IMG/VR virus record: IMGVR_UViG_3300042866_000949
Span: 1-28,433 of that record
Reading direction: 5' to 3' (one strand)
From: a virus
Length of the DNA stretch: 28,433 bases
The notes under the pieces are model-generated. The model was not told where the DNA came from. It saw nothing but the letters and a program-made list of their open reading frames with translations, and made no database searches. This document shows positions 11,143-19,207 of the stretch, piece by piece (the stretch's first letter is position 1; each line of letters starts with the position of its first letter). Made by a program: the position numbers and the translations under genes.

Positions 11143-12837
11143 TTATGCTTTAAGTAAAATTTTGTATGCAGTTCCGTTGATGCGTACGCTCCAAGTTGCG
11201 TCTGAGGAAAGGGATTCAGAGGTGATAGCACCTGCGTTAGTTCCTGCACTACCAAAAACGGCTTGGTTGTTTCCTGTTGCGGTTGCGCTTACTCCCAAAA
11301 TTAAAGAACCCGAAAAGTCACCCGATGCAGTATTTAATCCTACTGCGGTATTATAGTTTCCCGTTACGTTATCGGACATAGATGCACGACCAACTGCGGT
11401 ATTTTGTTCACCCGATGTATTTGATACCAATGAAGCATGACCTACTGCGGTATTGTAATTTCCCGTTGAGAGTTTTAATGCTTGATAACCGATTGCAGTA
11501 ATGTTTATTTGACTCGTATTACTATACCCTGCCTCAAAACCTACGGCGGTGTTGTTGGAGGCTGTGTTGTTGAATAAAGAATAATATCCTAAAGCGGTAC
11601 TATTGCTTCCCGTAGTATTAAATATTAAACTTCCAGTACCAAATGCAGCATTGTTGCTTCCCGTTGTATTTGACCTTAATGCGGCATCACCTACTGCGGT
11701 ATTTTCATTGCCTGTTGAATTATCCCTCATTGAATCAAAACCAACAGAGGTATTGTAACTACCTGTATTATTACGTAAAGCACGATAACCTATTGCAGTA
11801 ATTTCTACCCCACTCGTATTAGTTAACGCAGCCTCAAAACCTACGGCAACGTTGTTTGATGCGGTGTTGTTTCGTAATGAATCACGACCTACGGCGGTAT
11901 TGTTACCTCCTGTTGTATTAAACGCTAATGAAGCGCAACCAACACCTACGTTATTACTGCCTGTTGTGTTAGAAAGTAAAGAACTATCCCCAAATGCAGA
12001 GTTACTAGCACCTGTTGAATTTGAAAATAACGATTGAGTACCAACTGCACTATTACCCGAACCTGTTGAAAATCTCAACGCTTGATAACCTATTGCAGTT
12101 ATAGCCGTACCACTTGTATTTTGATACGCAGCCTCGTAACCTACGGCGGTGTTGTTGGAGGCGGTGTTGCTATATAAAGCGGCTTGACCTAAAGCAGTAT
12201 TATTACCTCCTGTAACGTTAGTTAATAACGCATCCTCACCAATAGCGGTGTTATTACTTCCTGTTGTAGTAGATAACAAAGCAGCAACGCCCACAGATGT
12301 ATTATTACTACCTGTAGTTGTATCGTAGCCCGAATCTCTACCTACTGCCGTATTGTTAAAACCCGTAGTATTAAAATTCAAAGCCCTATAACCTAAACCT
12401 GTATTGCTATTTCCTGTTGTATTACTTAACAAAGAATCTACCCCTACACCTACGTTTTGCGTTCCGCTTGTATTCGCCCTTAGTGAACGATAACCCAAAG
12501 CGGTGTTATTGGATGCTGTATTGCTCTCAAGCGACAATGCACCGATAGCGGTGTTGGTCGTGCCTGTGCTATTAGCCGTTAATGCGTTTAGTCCAAACGC
12601 CGTGTTATTAGACCCAGTTGTGTTGCTGTCCAATGCAGTAGCACCAAAGGCGGTATTGCTTGTGATTGCGCCAGCGCCATAGTTGGTGATACCTGTGGTG
12701 GATACCAACAGTGGCAAGTCGTTTCCATTACCATCAGACAGACGCTTGAGCGTTGCGGTCAGTGGAAGGTTATCACCGATCTTGATCAGACTCGGGTATG
12801 TGTTCTGAGGGGTGGTATTAAATAAAGAAGTTCCCAT
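11143..12837 (-). CDS. Long repetitive tail fibre with NTAxG beta-roll repeats
   Basis: A 564-residue fibre. Residues 1-50 (TYPSLIKIGDNLPLTATLKR, then LPLLVSTTGI) form a virion-attachment segment common in phage fibres. Residues 60-500 contain about 26 repeats of roughly 17 residues with the core N-T-A-V/I/L-G, as in YadA/Hia-type trimeric heads. From residue 226 they are grouped in 100-residue super-units beginning ASNN-AVG-EA at 226, 326 and 426. An earlier related block starting at 108 is 118 residues long. The C-terminus (SESLSSDATWSVRINGTAYK) is a typical fibre tip segment. The protein should be a trimeric, rod-like receptor-binding fibre. Confidence 0.82.
   Translation of the reverse strand: MGTSLFNTTPQNTYPSLIKIGDNLPLTATLKRLSDGNGNDLPLLVSTTGITNYGAGAITSNTAFGATALDSNTTGSNNTAFGLNALTANSTGTTNTAIGALSLESNTASNNTALGYRSLRANTSGTQNVGVGVDSLLSNTTGNSNTGLGYRALNFNTTGFNNTAVGRDSGYDTTTGSNNTSVGVAALLSTTTGSNNTAIGEDALLTNVTGGNNTALGQAALYSNTASNNTAVGYEAAYQNTSGTAITAIGYQALRFSTGSGNSAVGTQSLFSNSTGASNSAFGDSSLLSNTTGSNNVGVGCASLAFNTTGGNNTAVGRDSLRNNTASNNVAVGFEAALTNTSGVEITAIGYRALRNNTGSYNTSVGFDSMRDNSTGNENTAVGDAALRSNTTGSNNAAFGTGSLIFNTTGSNSTALGYYSLFNNTASNNTAVGFEAGYSNTSQINITAIGYQALKLSTGNYNTAVGHASLVSNTSGEQNTAVGRASMSDNVTGNYNTAVGLNTASGDFSGSLILGVSATATGNNQAVFGSAGTNAGAITSESLSSDATWSVRINGTAYKILLKA
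11182..12520 (-). repeat. Nested coding repeats of the fibre gene (about 51 bp, within 300-bp units)
   Basis: The fibre gene is built from 51-bp units coding for N-T-A-V-G-type 17-mers. At a higher level three super-units start at 12162, 11862 and 11562, exactly 300 bp apart, and each opens with the codons for ASNN. The units differ at many silent and non-silent positions, so the duplication is not recent. Such repeats permit length change by recombination. Confidence 0.8.
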
Positions 12838-14757: not shown

Positions 14758-15001
14758 CTACATCCCGCTCCTGTATGATCGTGTAGTGATGCCCACTGAT
14801 CACCATCGTGAATGAGTGACCCTTATCATAATGGATCACATCACCCTCTTTGATATGGGTTACATCCGTTCCCGAAGCCACTACCTTGGCCTTCTTGTAC
14901 CTAAACTCGTCAGCATCTCTGGCCGACAACAACAGACCTGTGTCCGTCTTTACTTCCTCCTCAATGTTGGAGATGACTATGTACTTTCCGATGGGCTTCA
15001 T
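14744..15001 (-). CDS. groES: Co-chaperonin GroES
   Basis: An 85-residue Cpn10 starting at ATG 15001, which overlaps the groEL stop as ATGA; a longer frame has no support. MKPIGKYIVISNIEEEVKTD matches the first strand of GroES and is followed by a shortened mobile loop TGLLLSARDADEF. Then come YKKAKVVASGTDVTHIKEGD and VIHYDKGHSFTMVISGHHYT, and the end IIQERDVVIVL is the canonical last strand. It should cap the phage GroEL ring. It is slightly shorter than bacterial GroES (about 97 residues). A full-length GroEL in the same operon makes the call strong. Its end overlaps the convergent winged-helix gene. Confidence 0.85.
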   Translation of the reverse strand: MKPIGKYIVISNIEEEVKTDTGLLLSARDADEFRYKKAKVVASGTDVTHIKEGDVIHYDKGHSFTMVISGHHYTIIQERDVVIVL

Positions 15002-16620
15002 GGCTGTGGTTCGTATACTCGTGCCATTGTCACGATTGCGTTGGTGGATAAAATGGTTACCGCTACGCTGATGGCGTTCTGCAAAGCACATCGCGTTACC
15101 TTCAACGGGTCAACTACACCCATCTTGATCAAATCACCGTGAGATCCTGTCTTCAAGTTGTAGCCCATGTTGAATTCAGTCACATCATCGTACACAGAGT
15201 GTACACTTATGCCAGCGTTGGTCAGGATTTGGTTGAGTGGGGCTTGTAGGGATTGTTTTAGGATATGAATGGCGGCTAATTTTTCTGCGCTGTGAGGCAC
15301 GATCGATGAGAACATGGTATCTTGGGTAGCAATGTGGTGCAAAGCGCGTCCAGAACCCGGCAAAATGCCTTCCTCGAGGGCCGAACGAACGGCACATACT
15401 GCGTCATCGACGCGGTCGTACAACTCCTTCTGCTCCAAGTCGGTGTTTCCACCAACGTATATGACACCAATACCACCAGTCAAGGAGGCGATGCGCTCCA
15501 ACAGAAAGTCCTTGTCTGCTTTCTTTGCTGCTTGTGCGTGTGATTGCCACAATTGAGCCACTCGCTCGTCGATTGTCTGCTGGTTAGAGCGCGCGGTGGA
15601 TTTAATCAGTATGGTTTTGTCTGAAGAGACGATCACTTTGGCGGCATGGCCTAGGTCCGAGTAGTTGATCAGGCTCAAATCGTCGCCGGTCTTCTCGCTA
15701 TAGTAGGTTGCACCCACACTCACAGCGATGTCCTGCATCAACTCGTGCTGCTTATACCCAAAACTAGGTGGTTGGATAGCCACAATCTTCAGGTTGTTCT
15801 TCATTACGTTCGCAGCCAACGTGTTCACCACGTTAACATTGCACGGTGCAATCAATAAAATCTTCTTGTTCTCCTGAATGATGGGCTTCAATACCAACTC
15901 CAATTGCAGGATGTTGCTAATCTCCATGTCAGCCACCAATACCATCACATCCTCGTACACGCACTCGTCCTTCTTCTGATCATTGATGAACAACGGACTC
16001 AAATACCCCCTATCAATCTTCAACCCGAGCGTAGTCTCCGCATACGTCTCTGTACTTTGGCTTCTCTCCACCGTTACAATACCAGTCTTACCAACTTCCT
16101 TGTAAACGCCAGCAATTATCCCACCAATGTTTTTGTCATTGTTGGCAGAAATCGTAGCCACGTCCGTAAGCATAGCGTTCGTCAACTTCTTACCATTCTG
16201 CTTCAACTTCTCCACCACCAAATCACTCACCTCCACCAAACTGCGTAGCAGTTCAGTACGGTTCAATGACGGGTTCGCGTTCAAATGGTCCAAGCCATTA
16301 AGAATCAAAGACTCCGTCAGCACAATACTCGTAGTCGTACCATCACCCGCCTCCGTCGCAGTGCGATCGGCAGCCTGCTTGACAATCTTCACAGCCAAGT
16401 TCTCAATCGGGTCAATCAAGTCTATCGACTTGGCCACAGTTACACCATCCTTGGTGACCGTAAGGCCATGCGTATGGTTGGGTGACTCAATCAATACCGT
16501 GTTGCCGCTAGGCCCCAATGTACTCTTAACTGCCTTGGAAAGTTTCTTGATACCACTAACCAACTTGCCTTGTGCCTCTTCGTCAAAAGCCAAGTCCTTC
16601 GGAGAATAACCTAAATTCAT
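14998..16620 (-). CDS. groEL: Chaperonin GroEL (phage-encoded)
   Basis: A 540-residue group I chaperonin, starting at ATG 16620 (upstream in-frame codons lie in the promoter and leader). The equatorial domain has VKSTLGPSGNTVLIES, TKDGVTVAKSIDL and AGDGTTTSIV, with the ATPase Asp at D93. The apical domain includes RGYLSPLFIND near 204-213. The second equatorial part has RVDDAVCAVRSALEEGILPG, with the catalytic Asp at D406. The variant GSGRAL replaces GGGVAL, and the Gly-Gly-Met tail is absent. It should form ATP-driven folding rings, presumably for phage proteins the host chaperonin folds poorly, such as capsid or fibres. It is transcribed with groES from the promoter at 16645. Confidence 0.93.
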   Translation of the reverse strand: MNLGYSPKDLAFDEEAQGKLVSGIKKLSKAVKSTLGPSGNTVLIESPNHTHGLTVTKDGVTVAKSIDLIDPIENLAVKIVKQAADRTATEAGDGTTTSIVLTESLILNGLDHLNANPSLNRTELLRSLVEVSDLVVEKLKQNGKKLTNAMLTDVATISANNDKNIGGIIAGVYKEVGKTGIVTVERSQSTETYAETTLGLKIDRGYLSPLFINDQKKDECVYEDVMVLVADMEISNILQLELVLKPIIQENKKILLIAPCNVNVVNTLAANVMKNNLKIVAIQPPSFGYKQHELMQDIAVSVGATYYSEKTGDDLSLINYSDLGHAAKVIVSSDKTILIKSTARSNQQTIDERVAQLWQSHAQAAKKADKDFLLERIASLTGGIGVIYVGGNTDLEQKELYDRVDDAVCAVRSALEEGILPGSGRALHHIATQDTMFSSIVPHSAEKLAAIHILKQSLQAPLNQILTNAGISVHSVYDDVTEFNMGYNLKTGSHGDLIKMGVVDPLKVTRCALQNAISVAVTILSTNAIVTMARVYEPQP

Positions 16621-16644
16621 ATAATTCGATTTGATTTGATACCA

Positions 16645-16652
16645 CAAATATA
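16645..16652 (-). promoter_or_regulatory. groEL-groES promoter -7 element (TATATTTG)
   Basis: On the minus strand GATGTATATTTGTGG gives TAnnTTTG 24 bases before the groEL ATG. The leader contains ATCAAATCAAATCG, the A-rich motif seen at other starts. Confidence 0.65.
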
Positions 16653-16718
16653 CATCTTCACATCGTATGTGCAACAGGACGATCTCCTTTCACATTTTCC
16701 TCCATCACAAAATTTGTG

Positions 16719-16975
16719 ATGTTGAATATGTTAATGTTGATGTTGACTTTTCCTTATCTCTCTCTCTCTTTTCTTAATGCGCAACTTTTTTTTTTATTTT
16801 CATTTCGGTTTCATTTTCAACATTTTCAACATATTTCCTTTTAACTCCTTTATTTTCAATGAGTTACTAATTTCAATTTCAACATATTTTTAACATAAAC
16901 TATGTTAAGTTTAACATGCAATTGTCATAGTATTGTAGAATTGTCTAAGTTATGTAGTAATAAGGCATGTTGAAA
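16719..16975. repeat. Cluster of ATGTTGA/TCAACAT heptamers, AT-rich
   Basis: The gene-free stretch upstream of groEL has ATGTTGA at 16719, 16734 and 16740 (with ATGTTAA at 16728), TCAACAT at 16817, 16826 and 16879, and ATGTTGA at 16968. At 16890-16917 there is a compound inverted repeat TTAACAT-N5-ATGTTAA-N2-TTAACAT. A pyrimidine run (TCTCTCTCTCTC) lies at about 16757-16768. Together with the phased repeats at 16995 this looks like a protein-binding, easily melted locus. No gene is visible here. Confidence 0.6.
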
Positions 16976-16994
16976 ATTTCAATTCATGCCAAAA

Positions 16995-17099
16995 ACATGT
17001 TGTTTTTTAGGCCAATTATGTTGAAAATCGAGGCACTTATGTCGAAAAATGACAACTTTATGTTGAATTTGGGGACATTTATGTTGGCTTTTGAGGGGC
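16995..17099. repeat. Five iteron-like units in exact 21-bp phase
   Basis: ATGTTG or ATGTCG occurs with its ATG at 16997, 17018, 17039, 17060 and 17081, each exactly 21 bp apart, or two helical turns. The units share ATGTTGAAAAT at the front and a partly conserved GGxxA-C-A-T-T at the back. No open frame explains this periodicity. Equal spacing places all binding faces on one side of the helix, as in replication iterons. It lies beside an AT-rich region, so an origin of replication or a cooperative operator is the best reading. Confidence 0.65.
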
Positions 17100-17152
17100 G
17101 ATTTGGGACCAAATGGGGTCAGACATAGGACAATTCTTGCCCTATGGGGACG

Positions 17153-17177
17153 AAAAAAGGGAGCATATAGCCCCCTT
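17153..17177 (-). terminator. Terminator after the small gene at 17223-17435
   Basis: On the minus strand AAGGGGGC (17177-17170) pairs with GCTCCCTT (17164-17157), with one G-U pair, around a 5-base loop and is followed by TTTTTT then CG. It lies 46 bases past the stop at 17223 and separates that gene from the phased-repeat locus. Confidence 0.65.
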
Positions 17178-17222
17178 CATAATGACAAGTCTGCCTTCGG
17201 CATCCTTATGTGATTGATGCGC

Positions 17223-17435
17223 TTAACCGCGTTTTACAATTGGCATAAGCATCTCCATTGCATCCTCACTTCGCTCGGCTCTCTTGTATGCCTCGCTCAT
17301 CATCTCAATCTTCTGCTCCTTCATACGATCCTTGCGCATCTGCGCATACTTGCTAATGCCCATCTCGTAACTGGGACTCTCTTGCGTAGCACCATAACTG
17401 ATATGGCTCGCTACAATGTTGAACTTCTTTATCAT
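17223..17435 (-). CDS. Small charged protein at the early/late divide
   Basis: The start is ATG 17435, 7 bases after a TATATTTG promoter element; the longer frame runs through the promoter and repeats and is unlikely. The 70 residues begin MIKKFNIVASHISYGATQES and end in a charged, Met-rich helix (YAQMRKDRMKEQKIEMMSEA, then YKRAERSEDAMEMLMP). I do not recognise a family. As a monocistronic gene with its own promoter and terminator, facing the early region across a repeat-rich control segment, it could be a regulator, but no DNA-binding motif is obvious. Confidence 0.6.
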   Translation of the reverse strand: MIKKFNIVASHISYGATQESPSYEMGISKYAQMRKDRMKEQKIEMMSEAYKRAERSEDAMEMLMPIVKRG

Positions 17436-17442
17436 GATTGAG

Positions 17443-17450
17443 CAAATATA
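17443..17450 (-). promoter_or_regulatory. Promoter -7 element (TATATTTG) for the 17223-17435 gene
   Basis: On the minus strand GCTTATATTTGCTCAATCATG gives TAnnTTTG very close to the ATG at 17435, so the leader is short or nearly absent. The direct repeats at 17471-17526 lie just upstream, where a regulator could act. Confidence 0.6.
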
Positions 17451-17470
17451 AGCAATGTTCTTGAAGAGGT

Positions 17471-17526
17471 TAGATACTCTCAGTGTGGGGGTACAGGAGA
17501 TACTAGACACTCTCAGTGTGGGGGTT
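17471..17526. repeat. Two direct repeats with internal dyad, 33 bp apart
   Basis: TAGA(T/C)ACTCTCAGTGTGGGGGT occurs at 17471 and 17504, a spacing of 33 bp (about three helical turns). Each holds the dyad CACTCTCAGTG (one mismatch in the first copy). The second copy runs into GGGGGT-TAT-ACCCCC (17520-17534), a perfect 6-bp hairpin. No gene covers them. They sit between the two divergent promoters and are candidate operators. Confidence 0.55.
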
Positions 17527-17581
17527 ATACCCCCCGATTTGCGCGCACGACCCATAGAGAAAGTCACTTTTTTTCGCATAG

Positions 17582-18911: not shown

Positions 18912-18960
18912 ACACGGCAAGGACACGCCCAGTTTTGAAGTTGGCGAAACGGCAAGACAA

Positions 18961-18992
18961 TTTGGAATTGTCATACCTTTGTCGTACCTTTG
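18961..18992 (+). promoter_or_regulatory. Early promoter 2 (TTTG-N20-TACCTTTG)
   Basis: TTTGGAATTGTCATACC begins at 18961 and the -7 box TACCTTTG is at 18985-18992. This matches the Bacteroidota consensus fully and is nearly identical to promoter 3 at 19136. Confidence 0.8.
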
Positions 18993-19000
18993 TATTGTTG

Positions 19001-19207
19001 ATGGAATGGCAAGAACGAAAGACACGGACACGAGCAAGGCAAGGCAAGAAAAAGCGGTGTCGTTACGACACCACGACACGGCAAGTTCACTCACAAGGCA
19101 AGTCAGTTCACAACTTGGAGATGCACGACTTACAATTTGGAATTGTCATACCTTTGTCGTACCTTTGTAGTGTTGAAATAAGAACCAAATCAAATCAAAA
19201 TGAATAA
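19001..19207 (+). CDS. Possible short ORF between tandem promoters
   Basis: An ATG at 19001, about 9 bases after the promoter 2 -7 box, opens a 68-residue frame beginning MEWQERKTRTRARQGKKKRC. It is Arg/Lys-rich, then runs through palindrome site 3 and the whole of promoter 3 and ends 8 bases inside the next gene. A second ATG at 19006 opens another frame of similar length (MARTKDTDTSKARQEKAVSL). Either could be a leader peptide, but reading through a promoter with no family resemblance makes both doubtful. If neither is coding, 18996-19135 is a transcribed leader carrying one palindrome. Confidence 0.22.
   Translation: MEWQERKTRTRARQGKKKRCRYDTTTRQVHSQGKSVHNLEMHDLQFGIVIPLSYLCSVEIRTKSNQNE
19056..19072 (+). 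promoter_or_regulatory. 17-bp palindrome, site 3 (between tandem promoters)
   Basis: GGTGTCGTTACGACACC, 63 bases upstream of promoter 3 and within the region transcribed from promoter 2. It is preceded by AAAGC, as are sites 4 and 5. Confidence 0.7.
19136..19167 (+). promoter_or_regulatory. Early promoter 3 (TTTG-N20-TACCTTTG)
   Basis: A near-exact copy of promoter 2, identical from about 19132 through the -7 box at 19160-19167. It is followed by an A-rich leader ACCAAATCAAATCAAA directly before the ATG at 19200. It likely drives the long early run. Confidence 0.82.

Follow-up and report, generated by a model that had tools for sequence, protein, structure and literature searches.

A phased ATGTYRA repeat array upstream of a phage groEL gene as the possible expansion of a duplicated origin-like module

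What function do five direct repeats in exact helical phase serve in the gene-free stretch upstream of a phage groEL gene? The window, the whole stretch of DNA analyzed here, is a phage fragment and makes up a virus record of 28,433 b. Its minus strand encodes TerL (phrog_6681), an endolysin, GroES, and GroEL, and its plus strand carries early-type genes. The identical phage is found on a contig of 63,767 b (L003/G001), which shows 100% identity across the compared 17.7 kb and is numbered in the direction opposite to that of the window. The viral collection contains >400 relatives of the GroEL and >550 of the primase; annotated kin is MW202828, with the Flavobacterium Elemovirus as a more distant relative. 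Of 45 relatives, 30 have a TAnnTTTG element near groEL, and these promoter-type elements, together with the annotated kin, indicate that the hosts are probably Bacteroidota. Host assignment through a genome collection was dropped, as the matches are metagenome-assembled contigs with mixed labels (Aliivibrio, Pseudomonadales, Flavobacteriales, and others). The locus contains the following features, in window coordinates.

14998 to 16674, minus strand: groEL open frame (PF00118, 2e-52; phrog_5725), with a likely start near 16620
16645 to 16652, minus strand: TAnnTTTG promoter-like -7 element of groEL, outside module A
16713 to 16921, minus strand: origin-like module A, ~210 bp in groEL orientation, with heptamer pair, IHF-like box, AT/GA-rich segment, and inverted heptamers
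16719 to 16746, plus strand: inverted heptamers on the groEL-proximal side, from sequence
16747 to 16805, minus strand: A-tract, GA-repeat, and AT-rich segment, a candidate DNA unwinding element
16817 to 16832, minus strand: close heptamer pair ATGTTGAAAATGTTGA, the core module signature, from a pattern search of full genomes
16854 to 16866, plus strand: IHF-like box, with one mismatch to WATCAANNNNTTR in the window copy
16890 to 16918, no strand assigned: compound dyad TTAACAT..ATGTTAA..TTAACAT, from sequence and aligned in 8 relatives
16967 to 16973, plus strand: lone ATGTTGA between dyad and array, 30 bp ahead of the first array unit
16997 to 17101, plus strand: five 21-bp units, consensus TATGTYGAAAAT plus variable spacer, from sequence, shuffles, and conservation
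near 17130 to 17180: possible terminator between small gene and array, judged by eye
17223 to 17579, minus strand: open frame of a small gene upstream of the array, with a conserved stretch at about 17261 to 17459 seen in relatives

A family search with the small gene returned no match. In the upstream part of its open frame, a 22-bp repeat, TAGAYACTCTCAGTGTGGGGGT, occurs twice (17471 to 17525), with the copies 33 bp apart. Elsewhere in the window, a long minus-strand open reading frame (11143 to 12837) with internal repeats of ~300 bp encodes a fiber-like protein with SNTTGSNNTA-type repeats.

The array units start at 16997, 17018, 17039, 17060, and 17081, with the exact 21-bp steps described in the sequence-only reading; of the five ATGTTG-type starts named there, the third one reads ATGTCG and the other four ATGTTG. 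At periods of 8 to 59 bp, the longest in-phase run is 5; none of 2000 Markov shuffles of the 549-bp intergenic stretch exceeds 2, nor does any of 100 shuffles of the whole window. The 21-bp array is far beyond chance. It lies in a gene-free stretch as previously described, with ~600 bp separating groEL from the next conserved coding stretch, and the further ATGTTGA or TCAACAT heptamers and the compound dyad of that description were all located by sequence search: ATGTTG/ATGTTA at 16719, 16728, 16734, and 16740; CAACAT at 16818, 16827, and 16880; and the dyad elements TAACAT, ATGTTA, and TAACAT at 16891, 16902, and 16912. ATGTTGA occurs 15 times in the window versus 7.0 times expected, with nine of these occurrences falling within 16719 to 17066.

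Repeat conservation, proposed earlier as a check, holds in part. The array with its 21-bp period is kept in the close relatives L004, L005, L007, L008, L009, L012, and L013; more distant relatives lack the long array but retain the neighboring module. The array is an add-on to this conserved module on its left, and the module has a second copy outside the window. A separate pair of 45-bp direct repeats (18957 to 19001 and 19132 to 19176; 97.8% alike), each with ~2.4 copies of TTGTCATACCT, lies close to the window's GC-skew minimum (about 18904) where no clear gene is present, and is conserved in L007, L012, and L013.

An nhmmer profile of 30 groEL-side copies matches the module A stretch (L003:7754-7962) with an E value of 1.2e-28, the copy itself possibly being among the 30 training sequences, and the profile of primase-side copies described below matches it with an E value of 7.2e-9. 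In an alignment of eight relatives, the motif positions are constant and the spacers variable, with the array located on the gene-upstream side of the block at 16713 to 16921. Read toward groEL, the family consensus comprises, in order, ATGTCG-TTTTTATGTCGA, a TAACTTATTGATTATTAATAC box, AATGTCGAAAATGTCGA, an A-rich stretch, AtATATAgAgA, aGGGaAA, and CGACAT. The pattern AATGTYRANNATGTYRA, searched in full genomes, matches mainly the two module copies. The TAACTTATTGATT part of the consensus holds the IHF consensus on the opposite strand; exact matches occur in 24 of 30 copies of module A and 21 of 53 of module B, the primase-side copy (45 of 83 in total), compared to shuffle expectations of 1.6 and 1.8, an excess that is not a tally of independent events since the rows share descent. 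The AT-rich segment adjoining the repeats represents a putative unwinding element: the GC content is 28% over 16751 to 16850, the CT-repeat and T-tract columns are invariant in the eight-way alignment, and the ATATATA/A-tract is conserved in the consensus of both module copies. No module copy contains the host DnaA box TTWTNCACA. In MW202828 (L276:4201-4500), dense CGCGTCGCGT-type repeats lie just outside module A.

The second copy of the module lies beside replication genes. On the 63.8-kb contig, only two clusters of ATGTYRA are found, with 11 and 8 heptamers per 300 bp versus a shuffle maximum of 4. The second cluster (~23.4 to 23.76 kb on the contig, ~15.6 kb from module A) is located between the gene for an SSB-like protein with the acidic tail EDELPW and that for a primase-helicase (PF08800 and PF19263), in a block that also comprises an exonuclease and a Sak annealing protein. 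In six genomes of 61 to 65 kb, the module A profile finds the primase-side copy in all six (E values of 2.2e-6 to 2.9e-24), the module B profile finds the groEL-side copy in all six (7.2e-9 to 5.8e-26), and neither profile finds anything comparable outside the two copies, which share the same orientation and lie 10 to 16 kb apart in each genome. Among family genomes with both groEL and primase, heptamers are present upstream of groEL in all and upstream of the primase in nearly all, some primase-side stretches showing only one or none by exact match. The primase copy is antisense to its gene, with heptamers abutting the start codon, and the groEL copy is sense; a search of both strands for TAnnTTTG in the primase copy of the window's phage found none. 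Upstream of a distant primase relative with 46% identity (L331:1820-2239), the paired repeat TTGTCCAAT/ATTGGACAA shows a similar layout, suggesting another version of the motif.

Both copies changed their motif together. One clade (nine primase rows, support of 99) carries the ATGTT-type heptamer at both places, and the ATGTC type is found at both places elsewhere; at heptamer position 5, the frequencies are 0.92 and 0.90 for T in the ATGTT clade versus 0.88 and 0.91 for C in the others. This concerted change points to one trans-acting factor. The switch appears to be essentially one evolutionary event, which supports, and does not prove, coevolution. Gene conversion between the copies could explain the shared motif in part; since the spacers are not visibly homogenized, gene conversion alone is a less likely cause than selection through a common binder.

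Phages of the ATGTT clade have a further array within coding sequence, where the tail of the ssb-like gene encodes MSKN/MLKN repeats, mostly ATGTCGAAAAAT or ATGTTGAAAAAT, in 21-bp steps. The matching heptads always use AAA for lysine and AAT for asparagine, compared to genome usages of 0.26 and 0.27, in a search that also permitted AAG and AAC; the heptads are related from phage to phage and so do not represent independent trials. Serine codons are limited to TCG and TCA, and serine-to-leucine swaps preserve the DNA motif. In the window's phage, a 22-bp step puts a fourth copy out of frame (CAT GTT GAA AAT). On the basis of codon choice and the out-of-frame copy, the ssb-embedded array appears to be under selection at the DNA level.

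The best candidate for the shared binder is encoded ~2 kb upstream of the primase start, in the same block as the Sak annealing protein, the exonuclease, the SSB-like protein, and the primase-helicase. The sequence-only reading reported no initiator gene, which is correct for the window; elsewhere in the genome, this stand-alone DnaA domain-IV-like protein of ~100 aa is a candidate. It is present in 33 of 34 genomes; in the only exception, G007, the contig ends 1.6 kb from the primase, and the gene may be cut off. All 38 members match PF08299 at an E value of <0.01, the copy of the window's phage scoring 25.1 bits, under the curated Pfam cutoff of 31.5 bits. A profile search of solved structures gives a DnaA match (E value of 8.6e-8). 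The AlphaFold model (pLDDT of 95.5) predicts a DnaA domain IV fold, with the top Foldseek matches all being DnaA DNA-binding domains (3pvp, 1l8q, and 1j1v; probability of 1.00, TM of about 0.75, and E values of 1e-3 to 1e-2). In six genomes, neither the AAA+ DnaA domain PF00308 nor a Rep_3 (winged-helix Rep) initiator was detected (0 of 6 each); searches also returned no full-length DnaA, no family A polymerase in the six genomes, and no phage-encoded HU/IHF. Across clades, the DnaA domain-IV-like protein shows 33 to 46% identity versus 75 to 82% for the primase-helicase, a divergence that might fit a binder that changes its specificity. A serine-to-proline exchange in the recognition helix was considered as the specificity switch and retained as a lead, as it tracks the motif only partly: proline occurs in all proteins of the ATGTT clade and also in several ATGTC-type phages. 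Taken alone, the proposal that this protein binds the heptamers has about an even chance of being correct. Some family genomes encode a second DnaA domain-IV protein of 187 to 204 aa (L276:21374-21943 and G009:C1:21204-21359), which was not found in the window's phage.

These observations favor, with a probability of about 0.58, a reading in which the array represents the expanded iteron block of a replication-origin module duplicated in each genome and operating by the following mechanism. Monomers of the DnaA domain-IV-like protein would bind ATGTYRA heptamers next to one another along a single face of the helix, 21 bp corresponding to two turns, and a host protein of the IHF/HU type might bend the module at the IHF-like box. 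The resulting nucleoprotein complex would strain the neighboring AT/GA-rich segment open, the phage primase-helicase would enter there, and a host polymerase or an unrecognized phage polymerase would synthesize DNA. Binding at the primase copy would also autoregulate the primase, as the iterons abut its start codon. The array, the module with its two copies at unique positions, their conservation, the concerted motif change, the signs of constraint on the DNA within ssb, and the presence and predicted fold of the DnaA domain-IV-like protein are observed, and from there we infer origin activity, the identity of the binder, bending and melting, and either the firing of both copies or an accessory role of one.

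Phased repeats, the AT-rich segment, the IHF-like box in many relatives, the copy beside the replication genes, and the position of module A near the switch between divergent transcription units argue for this origin reading; a skew without a clear flip and the absence of DnaA boxes argue against it, and the placement of iterons directly at the primase start is also compatible with a plain operator. Lacking the AAA+ domain, a DnaA domain IV cannot melt DNA in the manner of DnaA; another protein must therefore do so in the proposed mechanism. Cumulative skew, suggested earlier as a check, proved uninformative on the origin: GC/AT skew minima lie near module A in some genomes, several relatives show no clear flip at the module, and skew was set aside because it mainly reflects gene strand and because GC skew is monotonic in G009, G026, and G019. 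More tentatively, and at somewhat less than even odds, this large family may start replication from a duplicated ATGTYRA origin by means of a DnaA of which only the DNA-binding domain is left, the array having spread into ssb in two-turn, seven-codon steps in one clade; one DNA stretch would then serve as both protein code and origin sites, a clear example of overlap between the two.

The earlier proposal of an iteron-type origin or a cooperative operator is thus partly supported, with an origin-like anatomy and a second copy at the replication genes; an operator role is compatible, and the two roles can coexist. That a phage regulator on the phased heptamers only represses or times groEL and primase transcription, with no part in replication, is unlikely. 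Both copies do lie upstream of genes, the primase heptamers abut the start codon, a helical-phase array fits cooperative binding, and the DnaA domain-IV-like protein could be the regulator. However, there are only two sites per genome, placed antisense to one gene and sense to the other, the core promoter element of groEL lies outside the module, and the large conserved AT/GA-rich segment, the IHF-like box in many relatives, and the inverted heptamers in each copy are unlike a simple operator.

Binding by the primase-helicase itself, at an origin and accessory site of the P4 type with the DnaA domain-IV-like protein in another role, is quite unlikely. This enzyme is widespread in the family, and in the near-complete genomes examined, the same repeats occur as two separated copies, one of which adjoins its gene, but it stays 75 to 82% identical across clades that differ in motif, compared to the far more divergent DnaA domain-IV-like protein, and its family matches were all of the primase or helicase type. 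In other elements, repeat arrays are found at pac and partition sites as well, and direct copies 10 to 16 kb apart would suit packaging (pac), partition, or recombination sites. This explanation is very improbable: the terminase gene is ~14 kb away from the copy at groEL, the other copy belongs to the replication block, and no partition gene was recognized among the genes scanned.

The preferred reading, a duplicated origin module with an expanded iteron block, bears on a wider group of phages. A viral structure library contains many phages annotated with a DnaA C-terminal domain on its own; the literature searched gives no site or role for this domain, and searches on phage DnaA domain IV, Elemovirus, and phage iterons found nothing on this module. 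In this family, a protein and a DNA motif form a concrete candidate pair, and as the motif comes in two versions that differ by clade, binding specificity and origin function can be put to a direct test.

Among related phages, the podovirus MW202828 is a family member with both modules. The Flavobacterium Elemovirus (elemoF/elemoE) also has a GroEL/GroES pair, and its primase-helicase is 42% identical in the N-terminal part; it was rejected as a module carrier, as the elemoF stretch searched has no equivalent ATGTYRA-type cluster. Satellite phage P4 replicates with ori and crr, two separated sites with the same repeats, and has a primase-helicase in its replicon. The phage genomes likewise combine two separated repeat sites with a primase-helicase; in contrast to P4, they encode a separate DnaA domain-IV-like protein and place one copy upstream of groEL. 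Compared to bacterial oriC and DnaA, the candidate binder has a predicted DnaA domain IV fold, and as a lead, TTAT and the final A of the phage TTATGTYRA recur in the DnaA box TTATNCACA; however, the phages lack an AAA+ DnaA domain, their modules lack the consensus box, and the recognition-helix residues of the phage protein differ. Iteron-plasmid origins (pSC101, R6K, RK2, F, and P1) differ from the phage modules in that the phages have no Rep_3-type initiator and no host DnaA boxes, use a core motif of ~7 bp, carry two module copies per genome, and place part of the array inside a coding gene. In iteron-type plasmids, half-turn separation of the iterons abolishes cooperativity, and pSC101 requires its IHF site (PMC4980987). 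The phage locus shows the same multiple direct repeats in helical phase, spaced at about two turns beside an AT-rich, putatively unwinding segment, with an IHF-like box in many relatives and a candidate initiator within the replicon.
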